A stretch of 57,680 nucleotides of DNA, from positions 1 to 57,680 of the forward strand of contig JAFXQT010000020.1 in NCBI GenBank assembly GCA_017526905.1, given 5' to 3'. Position 1 is the first letter of the stretch; every line of letters starts with the position of its first letter. Below, piece after piece: positions 32,475 through 52,113 of this stretch. The position numbers and the translations under genes were made by a program. Source of the DNA: Bacteroidaceae bacterium (GTDB taxonomy: Bacteria; Bacteroidota; Bacteroidia; Bacteroidales; Bacteroidaceae). The notes beneath the pieces were generated by a model. That model worked only from the letters and a program-made list of their open reading frames with translations. It searched no databases and was not told the DNA's origin.

Positions 32475-35390
32475 ATGATGCAAGAATCCTCAGCAAGTCC
32501 GCTCGGCCCGAAGGGACCCTTGGCACTTCAAGAAATACATACCGATCCCTCCCTCGCAGGGAGGGCGGGGGGAGAGTCCGCAGAGTCCTCTCCGTCCTCT
32601 CCGCCCACTTTCCTAACCCTGGTGGCCCGCGACCTGCTGGCCAAGTATGGCACCGACCTGAGCCGTCTCACCGTGGTGTTCCCCGGCAAGCGCGCCAGCC
32701 TCTTCCTGGATCAGGCTTTGGCCCGCGAGAGCGCCACACCCGTGTGGACACCCCGCTACACCACCATTGCCGAGCTCTTTGCCAACGCCTCGCCCTACCA
32801 GCTGGCCACGCCCGTGGAGAGTGTTTGCCGCCTGCATGCCGTGTATGCCCGCCATGTGGCTGAACCCTACACGCTGGACCAATTCTACACCTGGGGCGAG
32901 GTGTTGCTGTCCGATTTCGACGACATCGACAAGCACCTGGTGGATGCCGGACAGCTCTTTGCCAACATCACCGACCTGAAGGCGCTGGAAGGCAACGACT
33001 ATATCACTCCTGCGCAGGAAGAGGCGCTGCGCGCCTTCTTTGCCAATTTCTCGTTGGAAGGCAACAGCCAGCTGAAGCGCCGCTTCCTCGAGCTGTGGCA
33101 GCAGATGGCGGCCATCTATCGCGATTTCAAGGCGGAGATGTGCCGCGCGGGCGTCCTCTACGAAGGTGCCATGCAGCGCGAGGTGGTGCAGCGCATGTGC
33201 CACGAAGGGGCCGCCGATGCCTTCCCGCAGGGCACCTACCTGTTTGTGGGCTTCAACGTGCTGCACGAGGTGGAGGAGCGCCTCTTCACACACCTGCAGC
33301 GCGAGGGGCGTGCCCGTTTCTACTGGGACTACGACCGCTACTACATGCAGGACGCCGCCGTGCCGCATGAGGCTGGCCATTTCATGCGCCGCAACCTGCA
33401 ACGCTACGGCAACGAGTTGCCTCCCCACTGCTTCGACAACCTGTTGCCTGCCGGTGCCGACGGCTGCCCGAAGACCCTTCGGGTGGTGGCTGCCAGCTCG
33501 GAGAATGCCCAGGCGCGCTACGTGGACCAGTGGCTGGCCGGCTACCTGACACACCCCGAGAACCACACCGCCGTGGTGCTGTGCAACGAGGCTTTGCTGG
33601 CCCCCGTGCTGCATGCCCTGCCCACCGATGTGCCCATCAACGTGACGATGGGCTACCCGGTGGTCGAGACGCCCGTGTACAGCTTCGTCAACAGCCTGCT
33701 CAGCCTCCAGACCGATGGCTGGGATGCCGCGCGCCGCCGCTTCCGCCGTGCCTATCTCACCACCGTGCAGTCGCACCCCCTGGTGGGCTATGTGCCCGAG
33801 GCCGTGTGGAAACGCCTGGCGGGCGACGGCAGCGAGCTCATAGCCTACCTGCGGCAGGTGCTGGCCAGTGTGGCCCGAGCCTCGTCGGCCCTGCTGTCCG
33901 AGGCCGTGTTCCGCTGCTACGAAAGTCTGGGCGTGCTGCAACGGTTGGCCGAGGGACCAGCCCCCCTGCTCTGCGTGGGGCGTGCCACCCTGCGCCGCCT
34001 CATCCGCAGCGTGTTGCGCACGCTGAGCGTGCCCTTCCACGGCGAGCCAGCCATAGGCCTGCAGGTGATGGGTGTGCTGGAGACGCGCGGCCTGGACTTC
34101 GACCACCTGCTCATGCTCAGTGTGGGCGAGGGCTACCTGCCTCGCGCCACCGCCGAGGCCACCCTCATCCCCTATGCCCTGAAGGAGGCGTTCGGTCTGA
34201 CCACTGTGCGCCACCAGATGGCCGTGTATGCCTACTACTTCTACCGCTTGGTGCAGCGCGCGCGGCACGTCACCTTCGTCTATAACGACAGCAACGCAGG
34301 CAGCCGCCAGAACGAGATCTCGCGCTTCCTGCGCCAACTCATGGCCGACCCGCAGCTGCCCATCAGCCACTACCGGCTCACGGCCGACAGCAACGTGCAG
34401 TTCCGCTCGCCCGAAGCCAAACCCAAGACGGAGCAGGTCATGGCGTGCATGCGCCGCCTCTTCGACAACACCGACCTGCAGCCCGACGAGCGCCCGCGCT
34501 ACCTCTCGCCCACGGCGCTGAACACTTACACCACCTGCCCTGTGCAGTTTTATTATAAGTACGTGCGCGGCATGAAGGTGAACCCCGATGCCACCGACGG
34601 GCTGGATGCCGCCGTGTTCGGCAACGTGTTCCACAAGGCAGCGCAGTTGGTCTATGAAGACCTGCGCCGCCGGGGCGACACCGTGCGCCGTCAGGACCTG
34701 GACTACCTGCTGGAGCAGCCCGAGGCCCGTCTGGCGCCCTACATCGACCGTGCCTTCCGCCTGGAGTATTTTGAGAAGCGCGGCGAGCAACCGTCGTACG
34801 AGGGGCTGCTCATCATAGGCCGTCGCGCCATGCACTCCTACCTGGAGCGCCTGTTGCGTCATGACTGCCGCCTCACGCCCTTCCGCATCCTGGGGTTGGA
34901 AACGCCCTGCGACACGCGCCTGGCCCTGGGGGCCGAGCTGGGCATGGATCTGCGCACGGGCGGCATCATCGACCGCCTGGACGAGGTCACCGACCCCGCC
35001 ACCGGCCAGGCCGTGGTGCGCGTGGTCGATTACAAGACGGGCGGCCGCCCCGACTCCGTGAGCCAGCTGGCCAAGCTCTTTGCCGACACCGGCCAGACGG
35101 AGCACTACTACTTCCAGACCATCCTCTACGCCACCATCGTGGCCAGCCAGCGCCACGTGCCCGTGCAGCCCGCCCTGTTCTATGTGCACAAGAGCGGTGC
35201 CGATGACTACACGCCCGCCCTGCGCCTGGAGCGCCAGCCCATTGCCGACGTGGCGCCGTTGGCCGACGACTTCCGTGAGCGGCTCGACCAGCTGGTGCGC
35301 GACATCTTCAATCCCGATATCCCCTTCACACCCACCGACAACCTAAAACAATGTGCCCTATGTCCTTACAAGATGCTCTGTCGGCGATAG
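32475..35390 (+). CDS. AddB-like PD-(D/E)XK nuclease with iron-sulfur cysteines
   Basis: A 971-residue partner of the AddA-like protein. A degenerate helicase-like N-terminal part (LSRLTVVFPGKRASLFLDQA; VMGVLETRGLDFDHLLML) is followed by a C-terminal nuclease with GGIIDRLDEV and VVDYKTG. One Cys in YTTCPVQFYYKYVRG and three in KQCALCPYKMLC fit the AddB-type iron-sulfur nuclease, in which the cluster staples the domain ends together. The first 40 or so residues are low-complexity and not family-like, and include a peptide encoded by a GC-rich palindrome at 32547-32565. No other Met lies before the conserved FLTLVARDLLAKYGTD. Confidence 0.9.
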   Translation: MMQESSASPLGPKGPLALQEIHTDPSLAGRAGGESAESSPSSPPTFLTLVARDLLAKYGTDLSRLTVVFPGKRASLFLDQALARESATPVWTPRYTTIAELFANASPYQLATPVESVCRLHAVYARHVAEPYTLDQFYTWGEVLLSDFDDIDKHLVDAGQLFANITDLKALEGNDYITPAQEEALRAFFANFSLEGNSQLKRRFLELWQQMAAIYRDFKAEMCRAGVLYEGAMQREVVQRMCHEGAADAFPQGTYLFVGFNVLHEVEERLFTHLQREGRARFYWDYDRYYMQDAAVPHEAGHFMRRNLQRYGNELPPHCFDNLLPAGADGCPKTLRVVAASSENAQARYVDQWLAGYLTHPENHTAVVLCNEALLAPVLHALPTDVPINVTMGYPVVETPVYSFVNSLLSLQTDGWDAARRRFRRAYLTTVQSHPLVGYVPEAVWKRLAGDGSELIAYLRQVLASVARASSALLSEAVFRCYESLGVLQRLAEGPAPLLCVGRATLRRLIRSVLRTLSVPFHGEPAIGLQVMGVLETRGLDFDHLLMLSVGEGYLPRATAEATLIPYALKEAFGLTTVRHQMAVYAYYFYRLVQRARHVTFVYNDSNAGSRQNEISRFLRQLMADPQLPISHYRLTADSNVQFRSPEAKPKTEQVMACMRRLFDNTDLQPDERPRYLSPTALNTYTTCPVQFYYKYVRGMKVNPDATDGLDAAVFGNVFHKAAQLVYEDLRRRGDTVRRQDLDYLLEQPEARLAPYIDRAFRLEYFEKRGEQPSYEGLLIIGRRAMHSYLERLLRHDCRLTPFRILGLETPCDTRLALGAELGMDLRTGGIIDRLDEVTDPATGQAVVRVVDYKTGGRPDSVSQLAKLFADTGQTEHYYFQTILYATIVASQRHVPVQPALFYVHKSGADDYTPALRLERQPIADVAPLADDFRERLDQLVRDIFNPDIPFTPTDNLKQCALCPYKMLCRR
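32547..32575 (+). repeat. GC-rich palindromic element inside the AddB-like N-terminus
   Basis: CCCTCCCT (32547-32554) pairs with AGGGAGGG (32558-32565) around a 3-nt loop, then CGGGGGGAGAG. It is read in frame as roughly DPSLAGRAGGESAE. It resembles elements at 50889, 51149, 52020 and 52085. Confidence 0.75.
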
Positions 35391-36613
35391 GCCGCCCGTG
35401 CCGCCCTCTCGCCCGCTACACATACCCCATCCGCCGTTGGCTGCCGACCCTTGTGCTGGGCCTTGCGCTCGGCTTTGCCGCCTGCCCCGCCAGCGCCGCA
35501 GGCTGGATGCGCCGCCTGCCCGACGCCACCTTTGTGGCAGCCTTGTCCATCCCTGGTGCCCACGATGCCGCCACTGGCGAGGGCTTCGGCCCCTACGGCA
35601 GCCTCGGCGACGAGTTTGCACGCACACAGGAACTCAGCGTGGCCCGCCAGTGGAGCATCGGCATACGTGCCTTCGACCTGCGCCCGGCCGCCTACGAGGA
35701 TCACCTGCATCTGCACCATGGTATCATCAGCACTGCCGCCCGCCTGGACAGCGTGATGCTGCAGCTGCGCGACTCGCTCGTGGCCAACCCGACAGAATTC
35801 GTCATCGTACACCTGCTGCACGAGCGCGACGGCGACCAGGCCGACACCTACGACGCCCAGCTGTTGGCTCTGCTGCGTTCCGACCAGCTCAGTCCCTACC
35901 TGGCTGATTTCCGCAAGGACCTCACCGTGGGCGAGATGCGTGGCAAGATGCTCATACTGAGCCGTGACCGGTATGCCACACAGCCCATCGGCGGCTTCTT
36001 TGACAACTGGACGGGCACTGCCGACTGGGCGCGCATGACTGCTGCCCGCATCGTGGGGCCCGGCAGCAATAATTCCTCCGGCCTCTACGTTCAGGACTAT
36101 TCCGACACACATGCCGCCGGCGGCATCAGCACAAAAGTGTCGGCACTGACGCGCCTGCTCACCTACAGTTTCGGCCATCGCAACGCGCGCAAGACCACCA
36201 TTACCTGGTACCTGAACTTTGCCTCGGCCTACTCGCTGGTGGCATCCATCTTCGGCAACGAAGTGTCCACCAGTGACGGCTACCGCGACAACGCCGCCCA
36301 TACCCACCGTGCCATCCTTGATTTCATAGCCGGCCGCCGTGTGTTCGGCCCCACCGGCATCGTGCTGATGGATTATGTGGGGGTGGACCAGTCGGGCGAT
36401 TTCCAGACCTTAGGGCAGGAGGTGGTCGATGCCATCATCGAGAACAACTTCCGCTATCTGGACGACATCACCCCCGTTCGCACCATCCCCGCGGATGCCG
36501 CTGAGCACGCCTCTGCTGGTGTCCGTTACGACCTTCAGGGGCGTCCGCTGCCCGCATCACAGCCCGCTCGTGGGCTCTACATAGAAGGCGGGCGGAAGCA
36601 CGTGGCGCGGTGA
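35351..36613 (+). CDS. Exported PI-PLC X-domain (phosphodiesterase-like) protein
   Basis: A 420-residue protein of the phosphatidylinositol-specific phospholipase C fold. Catalytic His candidates lie in IPGAHDAAT and LHLHHGII, with FDLRPAAYEDH between them, as in bacterial PI-PLC. A hydrophobic leader (LPTLVLGLALGFAACPASA) follows about 30 positively charged residues. The start overlaps the end of the AddB-like gene by 40 bases; an ATG at 35360 is an alternative. The C-terminus (VRYDLQGRPL, ARGLYIEGGRKHVAR) is a short tail like that of the GH5 enzyme. Bacterial members release inositol phosphates from phosphoinositides or GPI-like lipids; the substrate here is unknown. Confidence 0.82.
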   Translation: MCPMSLQDALSAIGRPCRPLARYTYPIRRWLPTLVLGLALGFAACPASAAGWMRRLPDATFVAALSIPGAHDAATGEGFGPYGSLGDEFARTQELSVARQWSIGIRAFDLRPAAYEDHLHLHHGIISTAARLDSVMLQLRDSLVANPTEFVIVHLLHERDGDQADTYDAQLLALLRSDQLSPYLADFRKDLTVGEMRGKMLILSRDRYATQPIGGFFDNWTGTADWARMTAARIVGPGSNNSSGLYVQDYSDTHAAGGISTKVSALTRLLTYSFGHRNARKTTITWYLNFASAYSLVASIFGNEVSTSDGYRDNAAHTHRAILDFIAGRRVFGPTGIVLMDYVGVDQSGDFQTLGQEVVDAIIENNFRYLDDITPVRTIPADAAEHASAGVRYDLQGRPLPASQPARGLYIEGGRKHVAR

Positions 36614-36690
36614 TGGAGTAGGGGGGAAGATTTGCAAAACGAAGCGTCCTTTCGAGCTTTTGTCGAAACGCAGCCGAAACCATCTGATAC

Positions 36691-36720
36691 AAGCGCGAAT
36701 GCCGGTGTGGATTCGCGCTT
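36691..36720. promoter_or_regulatory. Perfect 10-bp inverted repeat in front of the CE6 -7 box
   Basis: AAGCGCGAAT (36691-36700) and ATTCGCGCTT (36711-36720) are exact complements separated by 10 bp and end one base before the -7 box at 36722. It may be an operator that takes the place of a -33 element, or the terminator of the PI-PLC gene. Confidence 0.6.
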
Positions 36721-36721
36721 G

Positions 36722-36729
36722 TACTTTTG
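36722..36729 (+). promoter_or_regulatory. -7 box of the CE6-like gene
   Basis: TACTTTTG fits TAnnTTTG, 36 bases before the start codon. There is no -33 TTTG; the inverted repeat occupies that position. Confidence 0.6.
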
Positions 36730-36764
36730 TGGCGTAAAAACGTTCATAAAAGACAAACTGAACT

Positions 36765-38483
36765 ATGCTGAACAGAGTTTTCCGCCGTGACAACGGCCGC
36801 CGGGGGCGGCTTCTGGTGTGGCTGATGATGCTTGTGCCAGTGTGCGCACAGGCCGAGGCCGACCCCAATTTCTACATCTACCTGTGCTTCGGGCAGTCCA
36901 ACATGGAGGGCAATGCCCCAGCCGAGGCGGTGGACAAGACCAGCATCGGACACCGCTTCCAGATGCTGGCCACCACCGATTTCGACAACCCCAGCCGGCA
37001 GGCCGGCCAGTGGTACGCCGCCGTTCCACCCATCGTGAGCCCCATTGCAGGCTTGGGCATGGCAGACTACTTCGGGCGTACCATGGCGGCCGCGCTACCA
37101 GCCCAGGTGACTGTGGGCGTGGTGGATGTGGCCATCGGCGGCTGCGCCATAGAGATGTTTGACAAGGATAAGTATCAGACGCAGCTAACCGACCCTGGAA
37201 ACTGGTCGGCGCAGCTGGCCAACCGCTACTACGGAGGAAACCCCTATCAGCGGCTGGTGGACATGGCACGCAGGGCACAACAGAAGGGCGTGATCAAGGG
37301 TATTCTGCTGCATCAGGGCGAGAGCAACAACACACAGCAGGACTGGCCGCAGAAGGTGAAGAAGATTTATGAAGACCTGCTGGCCGACTTGGGTCTGGGC
37401 GCCGACAGCGTGCCCCTCTTTGCGGGCGAGTTGCTACGCCAGGAGTTTGGAGGCGTGTGCTGGGGGCACAACAGCGTCATCGCACGGCTGCCGCAGGTGA
37501 TACCCACCGCACATGTCATCTCGTCCGAAGGCTGCGAGGGCAACGGCAAGGATCCCTGGCATTTCTGCGCCATGAGCTATAGGCTGATGGGGCGCCGCTA
37601 TGCCTTCGAAGCCCTGCGCCTGATGGGGCGCGAGCTGATGGCCGACCCGGACTATGTGATGCCCACCAGCATGAAGAAATTCTTCTGTGTGCAGAAGATC
37701 GACCTGCCTGCCGAACTGGTGGCAGTGCCCGGACAGCGCATCGGCGTGAAGGCCACCTTCCAGGACGGGCATGTGGAGGACGTGACGGCCGGCATGGTGT
37801 ATGCCTGCGATGAGGTTCCCTTTGCAGGCGGCTGCGTGGCATCCACTGCCGGCGATGCCGACGGCACCGTTGTGGCCACCTATACCGATTTCAGCCGCAA
37901 GCAGACACGCGCCACCATGCAGCTGAAGGTGCGTCGCTTCCCCCTGGACGAACGCTGCATGCGCACGCTCATCGGTCAGGGCACCCTCAACTCCGAGGAG
38001 CGAACCCTGCAGCTGCAGGCGGGCGCTGAGATGGGCTGGGTGTACGATGGCGGCATGGATCTGTCCGGCTACAAGTATCTGGTGATTCAGTTGGCCGAGA
38101 AGCAGACGTGCGCGGCCCAGTTGCGGCTGTATGGGCAGACGGAGGACTTCAGCCAGAACTATGCGCTGAGTGCCTTTGGTTCTAAGACCACGGTGGGCGT
38201 GAAACTGGACGGCTTGCGCGTGGGCAGCCGCAAGCTGGCTGCGTCGGATATCCGCGCCATTGGTTTCTATGCTGCACGCGAGGGCGCGTTGCACATAGCC
38301 GATATCTATCTGACTAACAACGATGACTTTACGCCCGATGCTATGACACCCGTCCGGGCCGATGCCACAGGAGCCAGGTGCCCTGTGTTTAATCTGAGCG
38401 GCGCACGGGTGGGCACGGCGTCCGACTGGAGCCGCCTGCCCGGCGGCGCCTATGTGACAGGCGGGCGTGTGGTGCTGAAATGA
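36765..38483 (+). CDS. Secreted CE6-type acetylesterase with C-terminal accessory domains
   Basis: A 572-residue exported protein. After a leader (LLVWLMMLVPVCAQA) comes an SGNH/SASA catalytic domain of the carbohydrate esterase family 6 kind (about 35-290): FGQSNMEG with the nucleophile Ser, LHQGESN, and DPWHF with the Asp-His pair. Family members remove acetyl groups from xylan. About 300-390 looks like a bacterial Ig-like domain (VPGQRIGVKATFQDGHVEDV), about 400-530 like a beta-sandwich, possibly carbohydrate-binding (MDLSGYKYLVIQLAEK; IGFYAAREGALHIADIYL), and the end (FNLSGARV, LPGGAYVTGGRVVLK) is a short tail similar to that of GH5. The domain calls after the esterase are tentative. Confidence 0.85.
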   Translation: MLNRVFRRDNGRRGRLLVWLMMLVPVCAQAEADPNFYIYLCFGQSNMEGNAPAEAVDKTSIGHRFQMLATTDFDNPSRQAGQWYAAVPPIVSPIAGLGMADYFGRTMAAALPAQVTVGVVDVAIGGCAIEMFDKDKYQTQLTDPGNWSAQLANRYYGGNPYQRLVDMARRAQQKGVIKGILLHQGESNNTQQDWPQKVKKIYEDLLADLGLGADSVPLFAGELLRQEFGGVCWGHNSVIARLPQVIPTAHVISSEGCEGNGKDPWHFCAMSYRLMGRRYAFEALRLMGRELMADPDYVMPTSMKKFFCVQKIDLPAELVAVPGQRIGVKATFQDGHVEDVTAGMVYACDEVPFAGGCVASTAGDADGTVVATYTDFSRKQTRATMQLKVRRFPLDERCMRTLIGQGTLNSEERTLQLQAGAEMGWVYDGGMDLSGYKYLVIQLAEKQTCAAQLRLYGQTEDFSQNYALSAFGSKTTVGVKLDGLRVGSRKLAASDIRAIGFYAAREGALHIADIYLTNNDDFTPDAMTPVRADATGARCPVFNLSGARVGTASDWSRLPGGAYVTGGRVVLK

Positions 38484-38497
38484 AGAAGTCTTAATGA

Positions 38498-39931: not shown

Positions 39932-39940
39932 TATAGGGGG

Positions 39941-39976
39941 GTAATCTGAGTTATCGGAATAATCGGAGTAATCTGA
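39941..39976. repeat. Four 9-bp tandem repeats before asnS
   Basis: GTAATCTGA, GTTATCGGA, ATAATCGGA and GTAATCTGA run without gaps in the asnS leader, ending 10 bases from the start codon. Confidence 0.75.
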
Positions 39977-40019
39977 TTTTTCAGAGGTGCGGTGCGTGAG
40001 GCGCTGTGACAACTCCTCC

Positions 40020-41414
40020 TTACTCGAACGCGCCCATGCGGAGCATGTTGACTTCCTGCTCGGTGAGGAAGCGCCAGTCGCCGCGACGGAGGTTCTTTTT
40101 GGTGAGGCCGGCAAAGAACACACGGTCCAGCTTGATGACGCGGTAGCCCAGGTGCTCGAACATGCGGCGCACGATGCGGTTGCGCCCACTGTGAATCTCG
40201 ATGCCCACCGTCTTCTTGTCGTTCTCGTTGGGGAAGGTGACGTCGTCGGCGTGGATCTCGCCATCGTCCAGTTGGATGCCTTCGGCCAGCTGGCGCATGT
40301 CGGCAGCCGTTACGTTCTTATCGGTTTTTACCTGATAGATTTTCTTTTTGCGGTACTGCGGGTGGGTGAGCTTGCTGGCCATGTCGCCGTCGTTGGTGAG
40401 CAGGAGCACGCCGGTGGTGTTGCGGTCAAGACGGCCCACGGGATAGATGCGCTCAGGGCAGGCACCCTTCACCAGGTCCATCACCGTTTTGCGGTTCTGG
40501 GGGTCGTCGCTGGTGGTGACGCAGTCCTTGGGCTTGTTCAGCAGCACATACACTTTCTTTTCAATGTTTACGGGCTGGTCGTGGAACTTCACCTCGTCGG
40601 AGCGTTTCACCTTGGTGCCCAGTTCGGTCACTACGGTGCCGTTCACGCTGACCACGCCTGCCTGGATAAAGGTGTCGGCTTCGCGTCGTGAGCAGACGCC
40701 GGCATTGGCCAGGAAGCGGTTCAGACGGATTTCGGCATCGGGATCGATGTGTGTCTCGGCGTATTCAATGCGTTTCTTGAAGCTGTACTTAGGGTCGAAG
40801 CCGCGCTGCTGGTAGCCGCCACGCTGCTGGTAGCCGCCGCGCTGCTGATAGCCACCACGCTGCTGGTAGCCGCCGCGCTGCTGATAGCCACCACGCTGCT
40901 GGTAGCCACCCCCGCGCTGCTGATAGCCTCCGCGCTGCTGGTAGCCACCCCCGCGCTGCTGATAGCCTCCGCGCTGCTGGTAGCCTCCTTCGTTTGGCTG
41001 ATAGCCTCCTTCGTTGGGTTGGTAGCCTCCCTCGCGCTGCTGGAAGCCTCCGCGCTGCTGGTAACCTCCGCGCTGCTGGTAGCCCCCGCGCTGCTGGTAG
41101 CCTCCACGCTGTTGGTAGCCACCTCCGCGCTGCTGGTATTCGCCTCGCTGTTGGTAGCCCCCTTCACGCTGATAGCTGTGGCTGCGGTAGCCCTCGCCAC
41201 CCTCGGCATTGGCTCCCTCCTGTGTGTTGTCGGCAGTGAAGCGCGGACGGTAAGGACGGCGTTCGCCTTCGGCCGTGGCTCCATACACAGGGCGCTGGAA
41301 GCGTGGGCGTGGTGTGCGGCCGGCAGGGGTGAAATGGTTCTCTGCTTGTCTCTCAGTGTTGTCGTTGTTGTTGTTCTGCGCGAACTGATCGCGCCATTCT
41401 TCATTGTTTTCCAT
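40020..41414 (-). CDS. RsuA/RluB-family pseudouridine synthase with a long Gly-Tyr-Gln-Arg repeat domain
   Basis: Residues 1-83 are polar (NNNNDN, then [10 protein letters not shown]); about 84-205 consist of around 19 units of GGYQQR, with GGYQPNE variants in the middle; the catalytic part follows with an S4 domain ([20 protein letters not shown]) and the synthase domain with the Asp-bearing [18 protein letters not shown] and [14 protein letters not shown]. It modifies a uridine in 23S or 16S rRNA. The RGG-like repeats probably bind RNA or drive condensation (inference). It starts directly after the purB stop codon (TAAATG), so translation is coupled. The repeat number may vary between strains. 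Confidence 0.9.
40799..41165. repeat. 18/21-bp tandem repeats coding GGYQQR units
   Basis: About 19 direct copies of an 18-bp unit, a few extended to 21 bp by one glycine codon and two altered to code GGYQPNE. Every unit is a multiple of three bases, so copy-number changes keep the frame. Confidence 0.9.
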
Positions 41415-42878: not shown

Positions 42879-42886
42879 CAAAGGTA
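42879..42886 (-). promoter_or_regulatory. -7 box of the purB operon
   Basis: Minus-strand TACCTTTG fits the consensus, about 100 bases before the purB start. A TTTG lies upstream at 42901-42904 but with only a 14-bp spacer. Confidence 0.5.
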
Positions 42887-43029
42887 GCATTTTCTGTTGA
42901 CAAAGGAAAGCGAAAGCGGAAAAAATGAATGCCAAGCTGCTCTTTTTTTCCTGCCGACCTCTGACCTGCCAAACGTGGCCCCTGTGCCACACGCAGCCAG
43001 CAGGCAGCAATCAGGGGCGCATTGGGGGC

Positions 43030-46000
43030 TTAGCGGGTGAGCGAGAACTTCATGTTGAAGCCGAAGTCCTGGGTTACGGTGGGGTAGGCCGACGAGGAGA
43101 GCAGGGGCTGCGTGCGCTGGCGGTCGTAGTAGATGGACAGGGTTACGTAGCGGCTCATGGTATAGTCGGCGGCAAACTGTGTCTTGATGGCACGGTTGCC
43201 CTGGGTGGCTTCAGAGAGCGACGTCTGAATGTTGCGTGTGATGGCATCCTGGTTGCGCAGCGAGAAGTCAAAGCGCAGGTTCAGCGTGTGTGCAAAGTTG
43301 GAGCGTGTGTTGCGCTGGTTGCTGTTGTTGCGGCTGCCAGGGTTGTCGGTTTTGCTGCCAGTGCTCTTCTTGTCGGCACTGCGCTTGCTGCCACGACTGC
43401 CGAAAAGCGAGGACAGCTTGAAGTCGTTGATTTTGTAGCCCCAGCCAAACACCACGTCGTCGCTGGAGGCCTCGTTGATCTGTGCCGAGGTCATGGACAG
43501 CGTAAGCACACGTGTCTTGCGGTATTCCAGCTTGAATGTCATGCCCGACTCCATGGTCACGTTTAGACCGATCAGCGGCGAGAAGGCCTCGTTGATGCTG
43601 ACGGTGGAGATGTCGTACATGCTGGAGGGTACGTAGGCACCGGTTGTGGTGTTCTCCACGAAGCCCAGGTCGCTGCCTTCCATGCACTGCATCCAGGAAC
43701 TGAAACTGTTGTACGAGCCCACGGAATAGATGCTCTTGTAGGTGTGGGTCAGTGTTACGCTCTTCAGCACGTCGCGAATCCAGGGCAGGTTGCTCAGCCC
43801 CTTGTAGGTTACGCTCCAGTTGGGCAACATGCGCGTGATGGTGGGGAAGATGTCGAGCGGTGAGGTGGCGGCACGTCTGCCTGTGTAGGCGGCCAGGAAG
43901 GCGGGTATCATTACATCGGCCGAGTAGCGGTCCACGGTGCCGTTGGCGGGGTTGAAGGTGCCGCTCTGGCCGGTGCCGGCGGGGTAGCCTAAGCCGGCGT
44001 AGCGTGCCTCCACGCGTTGCTGCATCAGGCTGAGGTAGTCCTGGAAACGGCTGAAGGTGGCGCTGGAGTAGCCGTTGTCGGCGTTGCCGCGACTCTTGAA
44101 GGCTGTGCCGATGGAGATGGTGGTCATGTTGAACGAGCCCGTCTGTGTGGTGGGGTTGCCTGCATACATGTACTGGATGCTCTTGGCACGGTTTATGGTG
44201 CGCGAGGCGTTGACGTCGATTTTCAGCTCGGGGAAAGGTTCGAGCGAGGCTTTCAGCTGCAGATCCTCGGCGGCGCTGGTGGTGGCGGGCGTGGATACGC
44301 TGTCGGAGTTGAGCAGCCACCCCTGCTCCTTGGCCTTGCTGATGTAGGAGTCGCCGATGAGGCCGAAGGCGAAGTCCAGACCTGGCTGCATGGCACCGTT
44401 CAGGCCACGGCGTTGTCCCAGCATGTCGCCCACGCTGGGCATGAAGCCGGGCAGAGCCAGGTTGTAGGTGTTGCGGTAGCTGATGCTCACGTTGCGCAGC
44501 ATCATCAGGAAGCGTGCGCCTGCCTGTGCGTACTGGTACCATTTCTTTTCCGAAGCCTTGGGCAGTGCCAGCACGTTCACGCGCAGCTGTGTGGGGGCAA
44601 ACCAGCTGGAGTCGATCTGTGCCTGTGCCGAGCGTACCAGGCTGGTGCGGTTGGCCGTTTGGATGGAGTCGATGCCGCTGCTGTCGGGCAGCATCACAAG
44701 GGTGTCCATGGCGGCGACAGCCAGCAGCTCGCGCTGTTTGCGGCTCAGTTTGGGTCCCACCACCTCAATGGTGTTCTCGTCCTTGCGTTTGTACTTGAGC
44801 TTGTATTCCTTGCCGTCGGCAGTGCGCGCCGTGACACGTATTTTCTTGGATTTCTGTCCGTGCTTCACCTCGATGATGCTGTCGGGCAGCAAGGCCACCT
44901 CGCCGGCAAAGCCTTTCAGCTGCTTGCTCTTCTGTGCGCTCACGCCCTTGGCGTTGGTTTGCTTGCCGTTTTTTTGTGCGGCCTCGGCCTCGCGTTTGTT
45001 ATAGGCTATGAGGGCCGTGCTGTCGCCCGCCTCGGCCTGTGCCTTTGCAGCAGCCAGTTCCTTGGCTTTCTTGGCAGCCTCCTCTTTTTGTTTCTTGCGT
45101 TCGGCCTCTTTCTTCTTCCGCTCGTCGTCCTTCTTCTTGGCAGCATTCTTTACCTGCGATGTTGAGAAGCGCTTGTTAGCTTCCTTCAGGAAGTTGGAGT
45201 GGTTGTAGAGGGTTTCCAGGTTGACCTTTCCGTTCAGGTTGACGGTGCGCTGCGTGTTGATGGTGTTGCCGTAGGTGGCGCCGTTCTTCAGTTCGGCCCC
45301 TCGGCGCCAGTTGTAGGTGCCCTGGTAGGTGCCGTCGGCGCTGAGCCAGTCGGTCAGCGGCAGTTTCTCAAACGGCACTTTGTAGGATGCCTGCACGTTC
45401 TGATTGTAGTCCAGCGGGCGTCCGAACGAGCGCAGCGAGGTGCGTATGCTATCCTTCCAGGCAGTGTACTGGTCGGGGTAGAGGTCCTTGTTCACGGGTG
45501 TGTAGGGTTCCTCCACCTCGGCGTGTGTGGCGCTCTGGAAGGTGAAGTGCAGCGACTTGGTCAGATCCCAGCGCAGCTGGAAATCGCGGTTCCACAGGAA
45601 GGACTGAGTCCACTGCATGGGCAGCGACGAGGGGTTGTCCAGGTTGTCCATGTCGCGTTCCTGCAACTCGTAGTACTGTCGTGTGATATCGGTGTTGAAG
45701 GTGATGCTCTGCGGCGCGAAGTTGAAGTTCTGCTCCTTGATCAGCTTCAGCCAGGGGCTCTTGCTCTTCAGCTGCTTGAAGGGTTCCCATGCCTTCCAGT
45801 TGGGTGTCCAACTGTAGTTCATGCCGCCCCGCCAGGTCTTCTCGTGCTCGTAGACGGTGGTTTCGCCCACGCTGTAGGCATGGCTGTGGCTGTAGTTGAA
45901 GGTGAAGTTTTCAGGGTCGTAGGGCATGGGGTGCTTGCGTGTGCCGATGTTCACCTTGATGCCCGAGAAGGACAGGTTCTTCGACACGCTGGTCTGTGTG

Positions 46001-49000
46001 GTCAGGTTGGTGATGCTGTCGCGTTCGGCCTTGGTGGTGCAGGCATCCAGCGCATCGCTCAGCAGCATGTCGGTGTCCAGCGGGTTGTATTTGGGTTTGA
46101 TGGTTTCCTTCTGGTAGGTGTAGTACATGGGTGCGCTCACCTTGGCCTTTGGCGGCAGCAGTTTGCCCAGGTCCAGCTGTGTGGTGATGGTGTAGTCCAA
46201 GGTGTTGTCGTCCGACCGTTGGCTCACCGCCTGCTCGATGCTTCCGAAGCCAGCCTTCTCGTAGTGTCCTTGCAGGTTGACGCTGCCCAGATCGGACAGT
46301 TGAATGTTCAGTGTGCCCTGTGCAGCCCATCCGCCTTCGTTGCTGAACTCCTGCAGGCGCAGCTCGTTGGCCCACACCTCTACGCTTTTCACGGTGCGGC
46401 CGTTGTTGCGCACACCGATCATGATGGTCTTCACCTCGCCCAGAGTGGGGTTGCCCATCACGCTGATGTGGTTGTTGGGTGCATCGGTGTCCCACTCGCT
46501 GAACAGCTGTGCATACGTCACGTTGCCCAGACTCTTCTCGCGGTTGCGGTCCTTCTTCACGCTGGTCAGCTTGCTCAGGTCGATGTCGATCATGTTCTCG
46601 GCGGGCCACACTTGGCGTCGTCCAGGTGCAGCATCGGAGTAGTGGTCGTGTGGTGTGAGCTTCAGGGGCACCTCGTATTCGTAGAAGTTGCTCTTGTAGT
46701 CAGAGCCCAGTCGCAGGAAGAGCGATGTCTCGCCGTCCTGGAGGTCGGTCACGTCGTTGATCAGTGCGTTGGCATGTACGAACATCTGCAGGTGTTTGTA
46801 CTGGCGCATGTCGTAGTTGCAGTTCTTGAACACGGCGCGCGCGTCGCCGGGTGCCAGGTTCTTCACGATGAGCGAGAGAGCCTGCTCGTTGTCCTCCTGC
46901 AGTTGTGTCTGCCCAGGGTCGGTCACGCGGCTGATGCCCGGTGGCAGCACGTAGTTGACGGGTGTCTTGTCGTTGTTTTCCTCGATGTTCACGGCCGACA
47001 CCTCCAGGGTGGCGCTGGCGGCGGGTGCCTCGCCCTCATAGAGTGCCTGCTCGTAGTTGCGCCAGTCGGCCTGCACCAGGTCGAAGGTGCCCAGACGCAG
47101 CACGATGGGTTTCTCAAAGCCGGTGAGGAACACGCGCACAAAGCGGATGCTGGTGAAGTCGTTGATGCCGCCGAAGGCGCGCTCGTACTCCTCAAGCGGC
47201 ACGCGGAACTGGAACCAGCGCACCTCTTCGGAGGTGCCGTTGCGCAGTCCGCGCACGGTGTGGCGTATGTCGGCTATGTGGTTGGAGCCCACCACCGTGT
47301 CGGCAGGGTTGATGCTGATGTGGTAGCGGAAGAATTTCTCGTACTCGTTCAGTGTGAAGTCCTGGTTGATGTCCTCCACGTCGGGGGTGGTCTTGTAGGC
47401 CGTTTCGTAACTCTCGGGCGAGTTGTCGGTCGAGGGCGAATTGCCTTCGGGCAGGTTGATGCGCTTGTAGCGCTCCAGGATGCTGAGGCGCTGGGCGTCG
47501 TAGTCGGAGCCACGGTAGTAGTGGTAGTCGTCGCCGGCGGGGTCGTTCCAGAGGGTTTGGTACACGTCGGCGTCCACCTTGCCCTGCATGGCGGTGAGGT
47601 AGTCGGCATAGGCGCCGTAGGTGCGTTCCTCCTCGCTGCTCAGGCCGTTCAGACCGACGTCCTGGCGTGTGCGTGCGCCACTGCTGGTGTTAAAGGCGTA
47701 GGTAACGCTGGTGCTGGTGGGCACGCGCCCCCATACCGTCTCTTCGTAGTACTGCGAAGAGCCGTCGATGGGCAGTCCGCTCTCGTAGAACTTCTTGCCA
47801 TCCCTCAGCACATCCTCCGACACCTCGCCCAGGTCTATGTACATGTGGCCGGAGTAGCTGTCGTCGTCCTTGGTGTAGATGAAGGGGTCCAGCATCCAGA
47901 ACTCCATGTATTCGATGTTCTGTGCCTCAAAGTCGGGGTTGTCCGTCTTGCGCATCATGCCGCCCCAGTTCTCTTTCGGATAGAGCAGGTTGCCGCGGTT
48001 GTCCACCTCAGTGCTCAGGTTGTAGGCACCACGCTCGCTGGGGTAGTAGGCCAGGTTCAGCACGTTCATGGTGCTGGCCTCGCTGTAGCTGGTTTGGTAT
48101 TTGTTGGGGTACAGTTCGCGCTCATACACTTCGCGCACGTAGTGGTTGGACAGCTGGTCCAGGTCGCTCTTGATGTGCGATGGGGTGAGGCTGGAGCTGC
48201 GGCGTGTGAAGATGGGGTCCACGTAGTACCATGCCAGGCGTGCGCGTTGGAAGCCGCTCTGCACGTTGTCCGTCAGCTGAGCGCCTTCGAAACCCGTGGG
48301 CACGCTGCTCAGCATCCACGACTGCGGCGAGGAGATGCTCATGCGGTTCTTGGTGTTCTCGAAGTCGTCCACGTAGGAGGCGCCGCCTTGTATCTTGTGG
48401 TTCTGCCCGGCCACCAGCTGTGCGAAATCGCCGCTGAAGGAGATGGTAGATGGTGCCGTGAAGGAGTTCAGCGGCCACAGGTTCAGCACGTTGGTCAGCC
48501 ACTGGCTTTCGCGCTTCCAGTCGGCATGCACGCCCCACAGTATATTCTTCAGCGGTTCCTCGCCCATGGTCACCTTGGTGGTTTGCGGCTGTTCGTTCAG
48601 GAACTGGAAGGTGCCGCCGAAGGTGAAGTTCTTGGAGAAATCGTAGTCGAAGTTCATGCCGATGAACGTCTTGCGCTGCATGGCATAGGTCTCGTTCGAC
48701 TCCACGCTGGCATTCACCTTTGTGCCGCTCTCGATGATGCTTTGGTTGGTGATATACACCACACCCATGGAATAGTCCACGCGGTAGTCCACGTTCTCGG
48801 TCAGGGTCTGCCCGCCGGCGGTCACCACCACGCTGTGTGGTGCTATGTTGGTAGCACCCAGGTCTATCTCGGCTCCGTTGGTGCCTTTGTAGCGTCCGGT
48901 CAGCAGGAACTTGTCCTGCTCGGCTATCTGTTTGGCCACGGTCTTGGTGCTGTCATACAGGGCGTCGAAGCAGTACTTGTTGGCAATGGCATCGTTGCCT

Positions 49001-50997
49001 ATCCACTGGCGCAGGTGGTCGCCGAAGGGTTCGGCCACGGGGAAGATGATGCGCCCCTTCGAAATGGTGAAGCCCTCCACGTAGTCGAACTGGCCGTCGG
49101 CATTCGACTTGAGGTTCTGATCCAGACGGTCCAGGTTGGAGGCGCGCAGCAGGGTGGTGTTCTTCAGCGTGGGTTCGGGCAGATAGGTCAGATACACGCC
49201 GGCGGTGTCGCTTTGGTATTTGATGTCCAGCTTGAACTTCTCCTTCTGCGTCGAGGTGGCGCCCAGGTTGTATATGTTTTTCATCATCAGGTCCCAGTTG
49301 CCCATGCGCGGGCTGCCGCTGGTGCTTTTCAGCACCTTCACGAAGAGACACTTGGTGTTGTCCGTCTGGTCCGATGCAAACTCGCCCACCTGGTAGGTCT
49401 TGCCCTTGTAGGTGTACTCGAAGGCCACGGCCAGCACCTCGTCGGCCTGCAGCTGGAAGTTCAGGCTGATGTAGCCCAGGGCGGTGTTGATGTTGTACTC
49501 CGACGTGGATAGTTTCCGTGCGCTCTGCAGTTTCTCGTAGTCGGTACCGCCCTCAATGCCGCTCATGGCATCGAGCAGGGTGGTGGCCTGGCTGATGCTG
49601 CGGATGGCGCTGTCGGCCACCACCGTCTCATACAGTGTGTTGGCGCGGTTGTTGGGGTAGGCCACGCCGTTCGAACTCCAGCGTGGGTTGCTGATGCGTG
49701 TGCTTTCGCCCAGGTCGGTAAAGGCGATGAGGTTGCGGTTGTTCTCCACGTTGCTGCTCTTGTTGGTCATCCACACCTCCACGCGTTGTATGGTGATGCC
49801 GCTGGCAATGGTGGGCAACGATTTCATCCACAGGTCGTAGTTTTGGCGGAAGAAGTGCGAGAGCCAGAAGTGGCGGTTCTCCTCATAGTCGTGGGCTTCG
49901 ATCTCGAAGTTCTGTGTCTGCGAGCCCCCTTTGGAGCTGACGCTCTTCGAGGCCGATTTCTTCTGTCCTATTACCGTCTGCATCTTCAGTTTGCCGAACT
50001 GCATGTCCGTGCGCAGACCGAACAGGCTTGACACGCCAGGGATGAGGCCCGAGTTGGAGGGCATGCTCACGTTGCCCGCCTCGATCAGCTTGATGATTTC
50101 GTCCTCCTTGCCGTCGTATTTCAGTTTCATCTGTTGGGCATCCATCTGGAATTCGGCCTCGGTGTTGTAGTCGATCTTCATGTTGATCTTGTCGCCCACC
50201 TTGCCCGTCAGCGACAGGTTGATCTTCTCGTCGAAGTCGAAGCCGAAGGTCTTGCGGCGGTTCTGTGCCAGCGAGGGGTTGTCCACCTTTTTCAGGTTGC
50301 CGCCTATCTTCAGGTCGGCCGAGCCGCTGGTTTTGATGCTCACACCGCCAGGGCCGAATATCTTCTCGGCGGGTCCCAGGTCGAAGTTCATGTCGGCAAA
50401 GTCGAACTTGTTCTTGCCTTGGCTCTCATAGTTCTCGCGGTTCTTCTGGCGGTAGTAGGCGCGCATGGAGCGTTCGAGCGACCATTTCTGGTACTCGCCG
50501 GGTGTCATGATGATGGGTGTGCCCAGCCATCCGCCTTGGCCCATGCCGGTGCCCATGCCCAGGCTCAGGGGCGATGCGCCAAACTGGCCCACGGTGGCGC
50601 CAGGGCGGCTGGTCAGGCCTGTGGCGGCGCTGCTGCCTTTGGCCGTGCTGCTGCTTTTCTTGCCGTCGACTCCCAGTTGGCTCAGCCGAGTGCCCACGAT
50701 GTAGTTGCCCGATGTCTCATCGTATTCCGCCTCCGTCTTCAGGTTCTCAGGGGTCTTCAGGTCGATGGCGCTGCTGTCCAGTTCCTCTACCGTGCGAGCA
50801 GTGGTTTTGCGCACAGTATAGCGAGGCTTGGTGGTGGCCGTCTGAGCCGGCTCACCAACAGGCTTGCCCCCAGCAGCCTCACCCCCGGCCCCTCTCTGAG
50901 AGGAGAGGGGAGTGGTATCTTGTGAAAATAGGGGGGTGCCGACGGCCAGAAACATGGTCATCAGTAGGATTATGCTATGTGCAAAGTGCTTACTCAA
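43030..50997 (-). CDS. sprA: Type IX secretion outer-membrane translocon SprA (Sov)
   Basis: A giant exported protein (2655 residues) with a signal peptide (IILLMTMFLAVGTPLFSQ) and the features of SprA: the N-terminal TRLSQLGVDGKKSSSTAKG-type region, GVSIKTSGSADLKIGGN, KINLSLTGKVGDKINMKIDY, many beta-strand repeats of the very large barrel, and a C-terminal membrane strand ending FGFNMKFSLTR. SprA forms the 36-strand pore through which T9SS cargo passes. It is somewhat longer than typical homologues, partly through a Lys/Glu-rich stretch (about residues 1945-2000) and an N-terminal segment made by a palindromic element (50889-50910). ruvA lies directly upstream, as in many Bacteroidetes. Confidence 0.95.
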   Translation of the reverse strand: MSKHFAHSIILLMTMFLAVGTPLFSQDTTPLSSQRGAGGEAAGGKPVGEPAQTATTKPRYTVRKTTARTVEELDSSAIDLKTPENLKTEAEYDETSGNYIVGTRLSQLGVDGKKSSSTAKGSSAATGLTSRPGATVGQFGASPLSLGMGTGMGQGGWLGTPIIMTPGEYQKWSLERSMRAYYRQKNRENYESQGKNKFDFADMNFDLGPAEKIFGPGGVSIKTSGSADLKIGGNLKKVDNPSLAQNRRKTFGFDFDEKINLSLTGKVGDKINMKIDYNTEAEFQMDAQQMKLKYDGKEDEIIKLIEAGNVSMPSNSGLIPGVSSLFGLRTDMQFGKLKMQTVIGQKKSASKSVSSKGGSQTQNFEIEAHDYEENRHFWLSHFFRQNYDLWMKSLPTIASGITIQRVEVWMTNKSSNVENNRNLIAFTDLGESTRISNPRWSSNGVAYPNNRANTLYETVVADSAIRSISQATTLLDAMSGIEGGTDYEKLQSARKLSTSEYNINTALGYISLNFQLQADEVLAVAFEYTYKGKTYQVGEFASDQTDNTKCLFVKVLKSTSGSPRMGNWDLMMKNIYNLGATSTQKEKFKLDIKYQSDTAGVYLTYLPEPTLKNTTLLRASNLDRLDQNLKSNADGQFDYVEGFTISKGRIIFPVAEPFGDHLRQWIGNDAIANKYCFDALYDSTKTVAKQIAEQDKFLLTGRYKGTNGAEIDLGATNIAPHSVVVTAGGQTLTENVDYRVDYSMGVVYITNQSIIESGTKVNASVESNETYAMQRKTFIGMNFDYDFSKNFTFGGTFQFLNEQPQTTKVTMGEEPLKNILWGVHADWKRESQWLTNVLNLWPLNSFTAPSTISFSGDFAQLVAGQNHKIQGGASYVDDFENTKNRMSISSPQSWMLSSVPTGFEGAQLTDNVQSGFQRARLAWYYVDPIFTRRSSSLTPSHIKSDLDQLSNHYVREVYERELYPNKYQTSYSEASTMNVLNLAYYPSERGAYNLSTEVDNRGNLLYPKENWGGMMRKTDNPDFEAQNIEYMEFWMLDPFIYTKDDDSYSGHMYIDLGEVSEDVLRDGKKFYESGLPIDGSSQYYEETVWGRVPTSTSVTYAFNTSSGARTRQDVGLNGLSSEEERTYGAYADYLTAMQGKVDADVYQTLWNDPAGDDYHYYRGSDYDAQRLSILERYKRINLPEGNSPSTDNSPESYETAYKTTPDVEDINQDFTLNEYEKFFRYHISINPADTVVGSNHIADIRHTVRGLRNGTSEEVRWFQFRVPLEEYERAFGGINDFTSIRFVRVFLTGFEKPIVLRLGTFDLVQADWRNYEQALYEGEAPAASATLEVSAVNIEENNDKTPVNYVLPPGISRVTDPGQTQLQEDNEQALSLIVKNLAPGDARAVFKNCNYDMRQYKHLQMFVHANALINDVTDLQDGETSLFLRLGSDYKSNFYEYEVPLKLTPHDHYSDAAPGRRQVWPAENMIDIDLSKLTSVKKDRNREKSLGNVTYAQLFSEWDTDAPNNHISVMGNPTLGEVKTIMIGVRNNGRTVKSVEVWANELRLQEFSNEGGWAAQGTLNIQLSDLGSVNLQGHYEKAGFGSIEQAVSQRSDDNTLDYTITTQLDLGKLLPPKAKVSAPMYYTYQKETIKPKYNPLDTDMLLSDALDACTTKAERDSITNLTTQTSVSKNLSFSGIKVNIGTRKHPMPYDPENFTFNYSHSHAYSVGETTVYEHEKTWRGGMNYSWTPNWKAWEPFKQLKSKSPWLKLIKEQNFNFAPQSITFNTDITRQYYELQERDMDNLDNPSSLPMQWTQSFLWNRDFQLRWDLTKSLHFTFQSATHAEVEEPYTPVNKDLYPDQYTAWKDSIRTSLRSFGRPLDYNQNVQASYKVPFEKLPLTDWLSADGTYQGTYNWRRGAELKNGATYGNTINTQRTVNLNGKVNLETLYNHSNFLKEANKRFSTSQVKNAAKKKDDERKKKEAERKKQKEEAAKKAKELAAAKAQAEAGDSTALIAYNKREAEAAQKNGKQTNAKGVSAQKSKQLKGFAGEVALLPDSIIEVKHGQKSKKIRVTARTADGKEYKLKYKRKDENTIEVVGPKLSRKQRELLAVAAMDTLVMLPDSSGIDSIQTANRTSLVRSAQAQIDSSWFAPTQLRVNVLALPKASEKKWYQYAQAGARFLMMLRNVSISYRNTYNLALPGFMPSVGDMLGQRRGLNGAMQPGLDFAFGLIGDSYISKAKEQGWLLNSDSVSTPATTSAAEDLQLKASLEPFPELKIDVNASRTINRAKSIQYMYAGNPTTQTGSFNMTTISIGTAFKSRGNADNGYSSATFSRFQDYLSLMQQRVEARYAGLGYPAGTGQSGTFNPANGTVDRYSADVMIPAFLAAYTGRRAATSPLDIFPTITRMLPNWSVTYKGLSNLPWIRDVLKSVTLTHTYKSIYSVGSYNSFSSWMQCMEGSDLGFVENTTTGAYVPSSMYDISTVSINEAFSPLIGLNVTMESGMTFKLEYRKTRVLTLSMTSAQINEASSDDVVFGWGYKINDFKLSSLFGSRGSKRSADKKSTGSKTDNPGSRNNSNQRNTRSNFAHTLNLRFDFSLRNQDAITRNIQTSLSEATQGNRAIKTQFAADYTMSRYVTLSIYYDRQRTQPLLSSSAYPTVTQDFGFNMKFSLTR
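50875..50920 (-). repeat. GC-rich palindromic element inside the sprA N-terminus
   Basis: CCCCTCTC (50889-50896) pairs with GAGAGGGG (50903-50910). On the coding strand the copy reads in frame as TPLSSQRGAGGEA, just after the signal peptide. Its ends (ACTCCCC on one side, GGGGGTGAGG on the other) match the intergenic copy at 51147-51177. Confidence 0.8.
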
Positions 50998-51146
50998 CGC
51001 TGTTTTTATTTGTTTTGAGACCCCTTTCCAAGGAACTGGTTTTATAGTTTCATTTTGCTTCCCACGCTCGTCCAGAATCTCCCGTTGGTGCAGGGGCTGG
51101 GCAGTGGGCTTCAGCTTGTTTCCCCCCTCTTCTCGTTCAGTATTTA

Positions 51147-51177
51147 CTCCCCTCTCGGAGAGGGGTAGGGGGTGAGC
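51147..51177 (+). repeat. GC-rich palindromic element between ruvA and sprA
   Basis: ACTCCCCTCTC, one base, GAGAGGGG and then TAGGGGGTGAG. It is the intergenic counterpart of the sprA copy and lies in opposite orientation to it. Confidence 0.8.
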
Positions 51178-51220
51178 CTTTTTGGGGTGAGGCTTTTTGG
51201 TGGCCGAGGCTTGTATTTTT

Positions 51221-51826
51221 CTACAGCATCTTCAGCGCTGTCTTGATTACTTGCTCCACGGTGGCATCGGGCTCTGCACGCAGGATAGCCACCACGGCTT
51301 TCTGGCTGGGCGCAGGGCTGAAGCCGAGCATGGTCAGAGCGGCCACGGCTTCGTCCTGGACGGCTTTGTTGGCAGCACTCATCGGCTGACTGTTGGGTGC
51401 GCCGGCAGCGGCGTCGATGCCCAGTGTGGCTATCTTGTCCTTCAGCTCCACGATGATGCGCTGTGCCGTCTTCCCGCCTATGCCTTTGGCCGATTTGAGC
51501 AGACGCTCATCGCCGTTCACGATAGCGTTGCACAGCTCGGCGGGGGTCATGGCGCTCAGTATCACGCGTGCCGATGCGCCACCCACTCCGCTCACCGTGA
51601 GCAGCTGCAGGAACAGCTCGCGCTCCACCTTCGTGGCAAAGCCCCACAGCTGGTAGGCATCTTCGCGGATGGATTCATAGACGTAGAGTTTCACATCGCC
51701 CTGCAGCCCCTGGATGGCGCTGTAGGTGTTCAGGGTGATGCTCATGCCGTAGCCCACGCCATTGGCATCGAGCACGGCGAGGGTGGGCGAGAGTTCGGCA
51801 ATGGTGCCGCGTATGTATTCTATCAT
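51221..51826 (-). CDS. ruvA: Holliday junction branch migration protein RuvA
   Basis: Binds four-way DNA junctions and loads the RuvB motor. The 201 residues have the three usual domains: an N-terminal OB fold ([29 protein letters not shown]), a helix-hairpin-helix region ([35 protein letters not shown]) and a C-terminal RuvB-contacting domain ([20 protein letters not shown]). It is upstream of sprA with 223 bases between them, including a palindromic element that may reduce read-through. Confidence 0.97.
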
Positions 51827-51835
51827 AGATTAAAG

Positions 51836-51872
51836 CTTGCGCACGTTAATACTTATAAGTAACGCGCGCAAG
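51836..51872. promoter_or_regulatory. Inverted repeat upstream of ruvA
   Basis: Bases 51836-51847 pair with 51861-51872 in 11 of 12 positions, enclosing the 10-bp palindrome ACTTATAAGT (51851-51860). The structure ends 10 bases before the ruvA start codon, so it could be an operator or a hairpin in the leader. No consensus -7 box was found here. Confidence 0.5.
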
Positions 51873-52018
51873 TACGAATTATTGTGTAAGAGGGCAAAAA
51901 AACATATAGCAGCGCAGCCAGAGGCACCTCTCAGACTTAGCGAACTCGGACTCACCCCCTCGGACTCCTGCTGACTCACAGACTTACCCCCTCGGACTCA
52001 CCCCCTGCCCTCCGGGCA

Positions 52019-52113
52019 TCCCCCTCCCTTTCAAGGAGGGGGTAGTTACTATTGAAGCTTGAGTGCACGCAATGGCGTAGCCTACTCCCCCTCCTTGAAA
52101 GGGAGGGGGTAGG
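52019..52113. repeat. Two inverted copies of a GC-rich palindrome
   Basis: The copy at 52019-52044 (CCCCCTCCCTTTCAAGG, then AGGGGGTAG) is nearly the reverse complement of 52083-52113 (CTACTCCCCCTCCTTGAAA, then GGGAGGGGGTAG). Each copy is itself a hairpin. Together they could form a larger stem-loop around about 38 bases of spacer. Confidence 0.8.

Follow-up and report, generated by a model that had tools for sequence, protein, structure and literature searches.

Short palindromes that recur between and within the genes of a Bacteroidaceae bacterium are probably the ends, and the leftover ends, of a small and likely mobile unit built around a DUF559 nuclease gene. The window analyzed here (57,680 nucleotides; GenBank assembly GCA_017526905.1, contig JAFXQT010000020.1) is contig C55 of a 2.8-Mb draft genome that is 79% complete, and it carries such palindromes in frame inside an addB-like gene and inside sprA, as well as between genes. 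Solo palindromes are best read as scars of the unit and inverted pairs as internally deleted derivatives. The association of DUF559 with palindromic ends, in a variable unit, is strongly supported by sequence comparisons, and DUF559 as the cause of the spread of the palindromes is moderately supported by them. A sequence-only reading of the window had described the hairpins and the peptides that they encode; it overlooked the nuclease unit.

Five DUF559 genes were found in this genome. Two of them sit between inverted palindromes of sequence classes A (C66; the same class as the addB copy) and B (C58), the class letters A to D having been coined in this analysis, and the remaining three have inverted palindromes of other kinds on both sides. 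The unit begins with an outer GRCTCWCCCCC-like stretch, separated by one to three variable bases from a C-rich/G-rich hairpin, after which come the DUF559 gene and the same end inverted. Its full length is about 0.47 to 0.67 kb (71 units measured). The nearest named carriers of this DUF559 gene are rumen and gut drafts of Bacteroidales and Prevotellaceae; units are also present in Prevotella veroralis DSM 19559 (L225) and P. lacticifex (L257), and DUF559 occurs in 37 of 61 genus genomes and in 170 of 296 phylum genomes.

To score the ends, we aligned the 300-bp left flank of each gene to the reverse complement of its right flank and required a local alignment score of at least 14. Inverted ends were present at 30 of the 34 DUF559 loci fetched from the genus (the five of this genome plus the best-scoring one from each of 29 other genomes), compared with 4 of 420 random spots. 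The genome collection gave 75 of 77 usable loci, compared with 2 of 360 spots taken from those loci (3 of 80 loci were dropped because their flanks were too short). Since the random spots were mostly intragenic, a gene-matched control was added, in which inverted ends occurred in 1 of 55 neighboring non-DUF559 genes (the single positive being a 303-bp frame in L201) and in none of 33 window genes. When the left flank of one locus was paired with the right flank of another, 256 of 1,122 pairs reached the threshold; such mismatched pairs pass often because related units have ends in common, and we relied on the random-spot control. The phylum set showed inverted ends at 19 of 30 loci, compared with 0 of 142 controls. 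Among plasmid loci from cyanobacteria, deinococci, and alphaproteobacteria, the count was 8 of 10 (10 of 39 records fetched, a set without a control). On three Deinococcus plasmids (L356, L357, and L358), DUF559 is located at differing places in the same hpa (4-hydroxyphenylacetate) neighborhood and runs opposite to the neighboring genes.

The DUF559 protein matched, by profile, 3hrl (1.5e-28) and the phage mobile-intron endonuclease 3r3p (1.9e-8). Its AlphaFold model, with a mean predicted local distance difference test score (pLDDT) of 88.3, matched 3hrl (E value, 1.5e-6) and the catalytic domain of I-Bth0305I (5.3e-5), with a weaker match to Vsr (0.05). Residues E29, D57, E68, D70, H74, and D83 are invariant in 22 of 22 sequences. 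DUF559 is related to the EDxHD and Vsr-fold nucleases by sequence and by modeled fold, and DNA cleavage is its predicted activity. In two earlier papers, a cyanobacterial DUF559 gene is termed an EDxHD homing endonuclease (2022; PMC9403480), and a DUF559 protein that acts as a Vsr-like nuclease in Caulobacter is tied to SOS induction (2026; PMC12907096). The nuclease also covaries with its ends. The Mantel r was 0.50 over 98 units (those scoring at least 18 among the 102 considered, a selection that favors clear ends) and 0.47 over the 92 nonredundant units that remained after five groups of near-identical units were reduced. For pairs with less than 70% nuclease identity, r was 0.36, and 0 of 2,000 permutations were as high.

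Next, we compared the same gene junctions in different species. We examined 30 fmt loci and found clcA upstream at 19; 4 of these 19 contain DUF559 and called palindromes (one of class B rather than A), L297 encodes a palindrome-like N-terminal peptide with no nuclease, and 14 have neither. At L322, a palindrome was called upstream of fmt, but there was no clcA match. The leuC gene lies upstream in 29 of 30 leuD loci, and a unit separates the two in this genome only (1 of 29). Here, leuC terminates within the left palindrome, and the start of leuD, which is mostly M(A)KQKF..I.S in the other loci, is replaced. In both the fmt and the leuD units of this genome, an ATG overlapping the stop codon of DUF559 opens a frame that continues across the right palindrome into the following gene. 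The lead-in of the fmt units resembles the MN..SQ.H.APSLTGRAGGES found at L038, where a solo class A copy opens a major facilitator superfamily gene, and at L036, where one member of a short pair stands at a permease gene. A leuC-leuD fusion at L269, where no palindrome was called, is only suggestive of a scar. The gene names leuC, leuD, fmt, and clcA, together with ispG, cysS, and gmk, are assigned from reading the sequences rather than from a profile search.

Whole units also reside inside conserved genes. An open frame of more than 250 residues was recorded for 21 of the 77 strong DUF559 rows of the genus search (a count from the table) and for 12 of the 30 loci fetched in the phylum search. 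Ten of these 12 frames were scanned, and each contained DUF559 in a host gene: LeuS (two frames), MetH, HsdR (three), HsdM, and three methylase-type genes. Intein families were absent from the Pfam hits of these ten frames. The DUF559 insert of LeuS falls between residues 236 and 240 of 1h3n, with about 60 more extra residues upstream, and that of MetH falls between residues 754 and 765 of 9ssp. Hairpins mark both ends of the insert in MetH, HsdM, and the LeuS of L329 and the right end only in the LeuS of L326. Seven of the 12 in-gene loci pass the end-score threshold; neither LeuS locus does. The epimerase, cupin, phosphoglycerate-mutase, and GNAT hosts, as well as HsdR for L337, are likewise assigned from reading the sequences, not from a profile search. 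The DUF559-bearing HsdR frame of L346 (175-3315) has a GIY-YIG nuclease domain upstream, at residues 251 to 317, perhaps a second inserted nuclease.

The palindromes of the window share a layout: a C-rich and a G-rich arm enclose a short loop, and the G-rich arm is followed, usually after one to three variable bases, by about five to six G's and a tail such as GAGAGTCC or TGAGG. Inspection of the sequence found all the hairpins that the sequence-only reading had reported. It had treated them as similar copies of one type; instead, they belong to three sequence classes (Table 1): class A is the addB copy (CCCTCCC...GGGAGGGC), class D comprises the sprA copy and the copy at 51149 (CCCCTCTC...GAGAGGGG), and class C is the pair at 52 kb (CCCCCTCC...GGGAGGGGG). 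A detector requiring a C-rich arm, a loop of 2 to 10 nt, a complementary G-rich arm, 0 to 3 nt, and a run of at least four G's made four calls in the window: 32547-32572, 51149-51172, and 52087-52117 on the plus strand and 50882-50910 on the minus strand. It missed the left partner of the copy at 52087, a 23-nt perfect inverted copy at 52020-52042 that is separated by 44 nt from the arm at 52087-52109.

Table 1. Palindromes of the window and the two genes that contain them
Feature	Position	Strand	Basis or reading
addB-like gene, PD-(D/E)XK nuclease domain C-terminal	32475..35390	+	Open reading frame, Pfam PF12705, 29 other AddB loci
Class A palindrome with G run and tail GAGAGTCC, inside addB-like gene	32547..32579	+	Frame reads PSLAGRAGGES
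sprA (type IX secretion system translocon), ATG at 50961 used as start	43030..50961	-	Open reading frame, NCBIfam TIGR04189
Class D palindrome, SprA linker behind signal peptide	50877..50912	-	Frame reads TPLSSQRGAGGE
Class D solo palindrome, sprA/ruvA intergenic	51147..51177	+	
Inverted pair of class C palindromes	51995..52123	.	Outer limits judged by eye

In 31 stretches of the genome (201,204 bases), which were picked around listed copies and do not represent the whole genome, the detector called 75 palindromes, compared with 0 after single-base shuffling. Genome-wide, the pattern CTCCCN{3,20}GGGAGN{0,6}GGGGG matched 72+49 times (overlaps counted twice), compared with 2+2 matches for the reversed pattern. 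The 139-nt piece of the window that holds the 52-kb pair has a second copy at G000:C104:4399-4538 with 91% identity, so that an inverted palindrome pair with a short conserved spacer recurs in the genome. The search for the element that the sequence-only reading had called for therefore confirms a genome-wide repeat population; the pattern counts, the empty shuffles, and the second copy of the pair exclude chance similarity, which it had named as a possible refutation. When folded as single-stranded DNA, four single copies beat their shuffles (z, −1.68 to −3.19), the sprA copy was no better than its shuffles (z, −0.19), and the class C pair reached a z of −11.75. Known RNA families had no match within 50000-53000. 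At 52000-52045 in the window, and also at L229, L233, L254, and L262, the variable spacer that separates the C run from the main hairpin is replaced by a second small hairpin (e.g., TGCCCTCCGGGCA); this spacer seems tolerant of an extra stem.

The peptides RGAGGE and RAGGE noticed in the sequence-only reading are encoded as SSQRGAGGE in SprA and within the AddB frame, and both sites lie, as it had claimed, outside the conserved parts of the proteins: the SprA copy after the signal peptide but before the first conserved motif and the AddB copy in a 44-residue N-terminal extension ahead of a conserved TFL. Its central observation, of palindromes located between genes and also translated in frame near N termini, is supported by sequence, and 27 of 29 SprA and 28 of 29 AddB orthologs lack one. 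Among 30 SprA loci (29 plus this genome), three have a GC-rich hairpin toward the N terminus: besides the locus of this genome, L082 has a class A copy with the peptide APSLTGRAGGES, and L092 has a different palindrome. In L066, which scores best among the other SprA proteins (76% identical), the linker is free of the element. Among 30 AddB loci, the hairpin is found in this genome and in L106, again as another palindrome. The same peptides in orthologs from distant species would have refuted the sequence-only reading; the palindromes of the other species belong to different sequence classes. From these sequences, palindromes of other classes at the same stretch look like separate insertions into a tolerant region, and the SprA linker seems to have been struck more than once.

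In 28 of the 29 other AddB homologs, an in-frame Met stands 0 to 6 residues ahead of the conserved FL. The AddB of this genome has no such Met, and there is no ATG, GTG, or TTG between its palindrome and the TFL. Because no start codon remains downstream before the TFL, translation of the element is unavoidable, provided that the gene is functional and starts at an ordinary codon. The addB palindrome and the bases just upstream of it find their best match among unit ends at the right end of the L184 DUF559 unit; because the bases immediately inside that right end are common to the addB copy, we read it as a right-end leftover. The sprA palindrome best matches the right end of the L255 unit. 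The best explanation of the two peptides is that they are by-products of leftover ends, and we propose no function for them. Runs of a AGAGATAAAAGATAA-like repeat occur between addA and addB (window 32425-32475), at L033, and next to other class A palindromes of the genome.

In-frame copies are not restricted to these two genes. The window and the 31 fetched stretches together contain 79 called palindromes, many of them inside long frames, and each of the 18 palindrome-bearing proteins that we scanned has at least one Pfam family. At the palindrome, N-acetylornithine carbamoyltransferase has about 32 extra residues relative to 2g7m (and a second extra stretch of about 22), an acyl-CoA synthetase relative has about 20 relative to 3etc, and glutamate synthase (GltB) has about 14 relative to 7mfm. 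ProA is a weak case, with a palindrome-coded stretch yet zero net gain in length.

These observations can be accommodated by a mechanism in which the DUF559 nuclease would recognize its own hairpin ends, as a cruciform or as a single strand, and cut at or near them. Repair after cutting would copy or move the unit to a new site and produce no target-site duplication. Both the ends and the nuclease gene would be readable in frame, with translation restarting downstream at an ATG at the stop codon, as in the two units checked; owing to this read-through and restart, the host protein could stay usable after insertion at gene starts, junctions, and linkers. Loss of the middle would leave an inverted pair and loss of all but one end a solo palindrome, and the addB and sprA copies would be such leftovers.

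Several points weigh against this reading. Cutting and moving by DUF559 are predictions, and its role as the driver of movement is inferred from sequence. Solo palindromes far outnumber the five DUF559 genes of this genome, so they may also multiply in another way, and a DUF559 gene cognate to class C or D is missing from the incomplete draft. No target-site duplication was detected in 71 units (27 of the 98, without a clear outer motif, were dropped from the boundary count): direct matches of 2 to 8 nt numbered 2, 2, 1, 0, 0, 0, and 0, compared with expected values of 3.7, 1.4, 0.4, 0.02, 0, 0, and 0. Ends below the threshold were found at 4 of 34 genus, 2 of 77 collection, 11 of 30 phylum, and 2 of 10 plasmid loci, and the genus and collection sets partly overlap (L136/L208 and L137/L258). 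The best nonself match to 50600-52300 among 139 genus genomes covers the ruvA region only (about 79%), and for this reason the site comparisons were made on proteins. Finally, the GGGGWSAS motif, described for some tyrosine-transposase gene ends in a 2013 survey of tagged palindromes (PMC3733652), is present at both ends of 33 of 98 DUF559 units.

This motif is the main reason to retain a rival in which the palindromes are repetitive extragenic palindromic (REP) elements, or REPINs, moved in trans by an HUH tyrosine transposase missing from the draft, with DUF559 as a passenger. REP biology is established for GTAG repeats (PMC3733652 and PMC8266576), and a TnpA_REP subclass abundant in Cyanobacteria and Bacteroidetes (subclass 2.4 in Bacteroidetes) contains in-frame REPs in its genes (PMC6006769). 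We nevertheless consider this explanation rather unlikely. The search of this genome yielded no Y1 tyrosine transposase, and C-rich palindromes were called within 600 bp at 0 of 19 genus Y1 loci; the inverted flanks of the six strongest (L009 to L014) are distinct and their own, and some contain GTAG-type hairpins, e.g., GGTAGCCAGCC. A Y1 partner is unsupported in the genome and the genus; the incompleteness of the draft is why it stays among the rivals. A passenger gene would not be expected to covary with the ends or to be flanked by them at 75 of 77 loci. GTAG is also not a conserved foot, since the spacer before the G run is TA, CC, TT, CT, CA, AT, or TC across the genome; it appears in the window only at 51149 and in the 52-kb pair, where the spacer happens to be TA, and is absent from the addB and sprA copies.

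It is more improbable still that DUF559 is a host gene for Vsr-like repair or genome defense and that the palindromes are selected binding sites or terminators, with mobility old or absent. The Caulobacter protein does work as a Vsr-like nuclease (PMC12907096), and the palindromes fold well and could terminate transcripts, but units at the same junction vary in class and presence between close species, lie inside unrelated genes, and are accompanied by scattered in-frame scars in enzymes without an obvious role for them. For addB alone, the palindrome might be untranslated, with a start downstream at a GTG or a nonstandard codon and an accidental in-frame peptide; many N-terminal REPs elsewhere are thought to be untranslated (PMC3733652). 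This is quite unlikely given the lack of start codons described above, as the first GTG lies within the conserved stretch and the AddB of L106 has equally lost its usual Met behind a palindrome.

The DUF559 unit resembles several known systems in part. The parallel with Rickettsia palindromic elements (RPEs) drawn by the sequence-only reading is valid at the level of the phenomenon, already published for several bacteria: as in RPEs and intragenic REPs, short multicopy palindromes lie in frame in unrelated conserved genes, are missing from orthologs, and add a peptide at tolerated sites, including N termini. The 2013 survey reports REPs inside open reading frames, including recBCD genes and N termini, a CGTC terminal tag for RPE-4 and RPE-6, and the CGTC repeats as one large palindrome class seemingly without a dedicated transposase (PMC3733652). 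Unlike RPEs, the palindromes described here are the ends of a DUF559 unit, and the four window elements lack the CGTC tag on either strand. The REPtrons of GTAG REPs and REP-associated tyrosine transposases (RAYTs; TnpA_REP), and REPINs, likewise have inverted hairpins around a nuclease-type gene, dispersed singles, and inverted pairs; the gene here, however, is DUF559 (Vsr/EDxHD fold) and not an HUH tyrosine transposase, and genus Y1 loci carry other ends. Homing endonucleases of the I-Bth0305I EDxHD type share the nuclease domain by profile and fold, whereas DUF559 has no intron or intein around it, has its own hairpin ends, and enters many target genes rather than one homing site. Inteins with a homing endonuclease also place a nuclease gene in frame within conserved enzymes, but no splicing domain was found in the ten scanned frames, and the ends are palindrome-coded linkers. 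Miniature inverted-repeat transposable elements (MITEs) are similarly short noncoding derivatives with the inverted ends of a coding unit; here, there is no target-site duplication and the ends are themselves hairpins.

Other repeats were seen in the window. Four tandem 22-nt copies containing a small inverted repeat, TCTCACTAATGAGA, occupy 53940-54049, and 11991-12044 holds a perfect inverted repeat whose 26-nt arms are 2 nt apart. Twelve imperfect copies with 18- or 21-nt spacing (40768-41207) are within a reverse-strand frame (40020-41414). A 52-nt stretch at 139-190 is 96% identical to one 1.6 kb away at 1774-1825, which overlaps the start of a frame at 1788.

In-frame palindromic insertion is not new as a phenomenon, and the cognate nuclease unit appears to be the new part. 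A link between DUF559 and palindromes was not reported in the open-access literature that we searched, most subscription papers lying outside it. We see an even chance that the unit represents a widespread, unrecognized mobile element of Bacteroidota and, judging from the ten plasmid loci, of cyanobacteria, deinococci, and alphaproteobacteria: a homing-type DUF559 nuclease, bounded by hairpins, that enters genes in frame, is not spliced out, and leaves translated peptide scars and miniature inverted pairs. Each nuclease lineage would have a palindrome family of its own, and the nuclease may be the missing enzyme of REP-like palindromes for which no transposase is known. How palindromes enter working genes has been an open question since they were described in Rickettsia, and the DUF559 unit supplies a specific candidate that is open to experiment. 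If the proposal is true, insertion scars would account for many unusual N-terminal extensions and loops of Bacteroidota proteins, which would be relevant to gene annotation, structure prediction, and protein evolution, and a mobile element would be able to reside inside a protein without splicing out.

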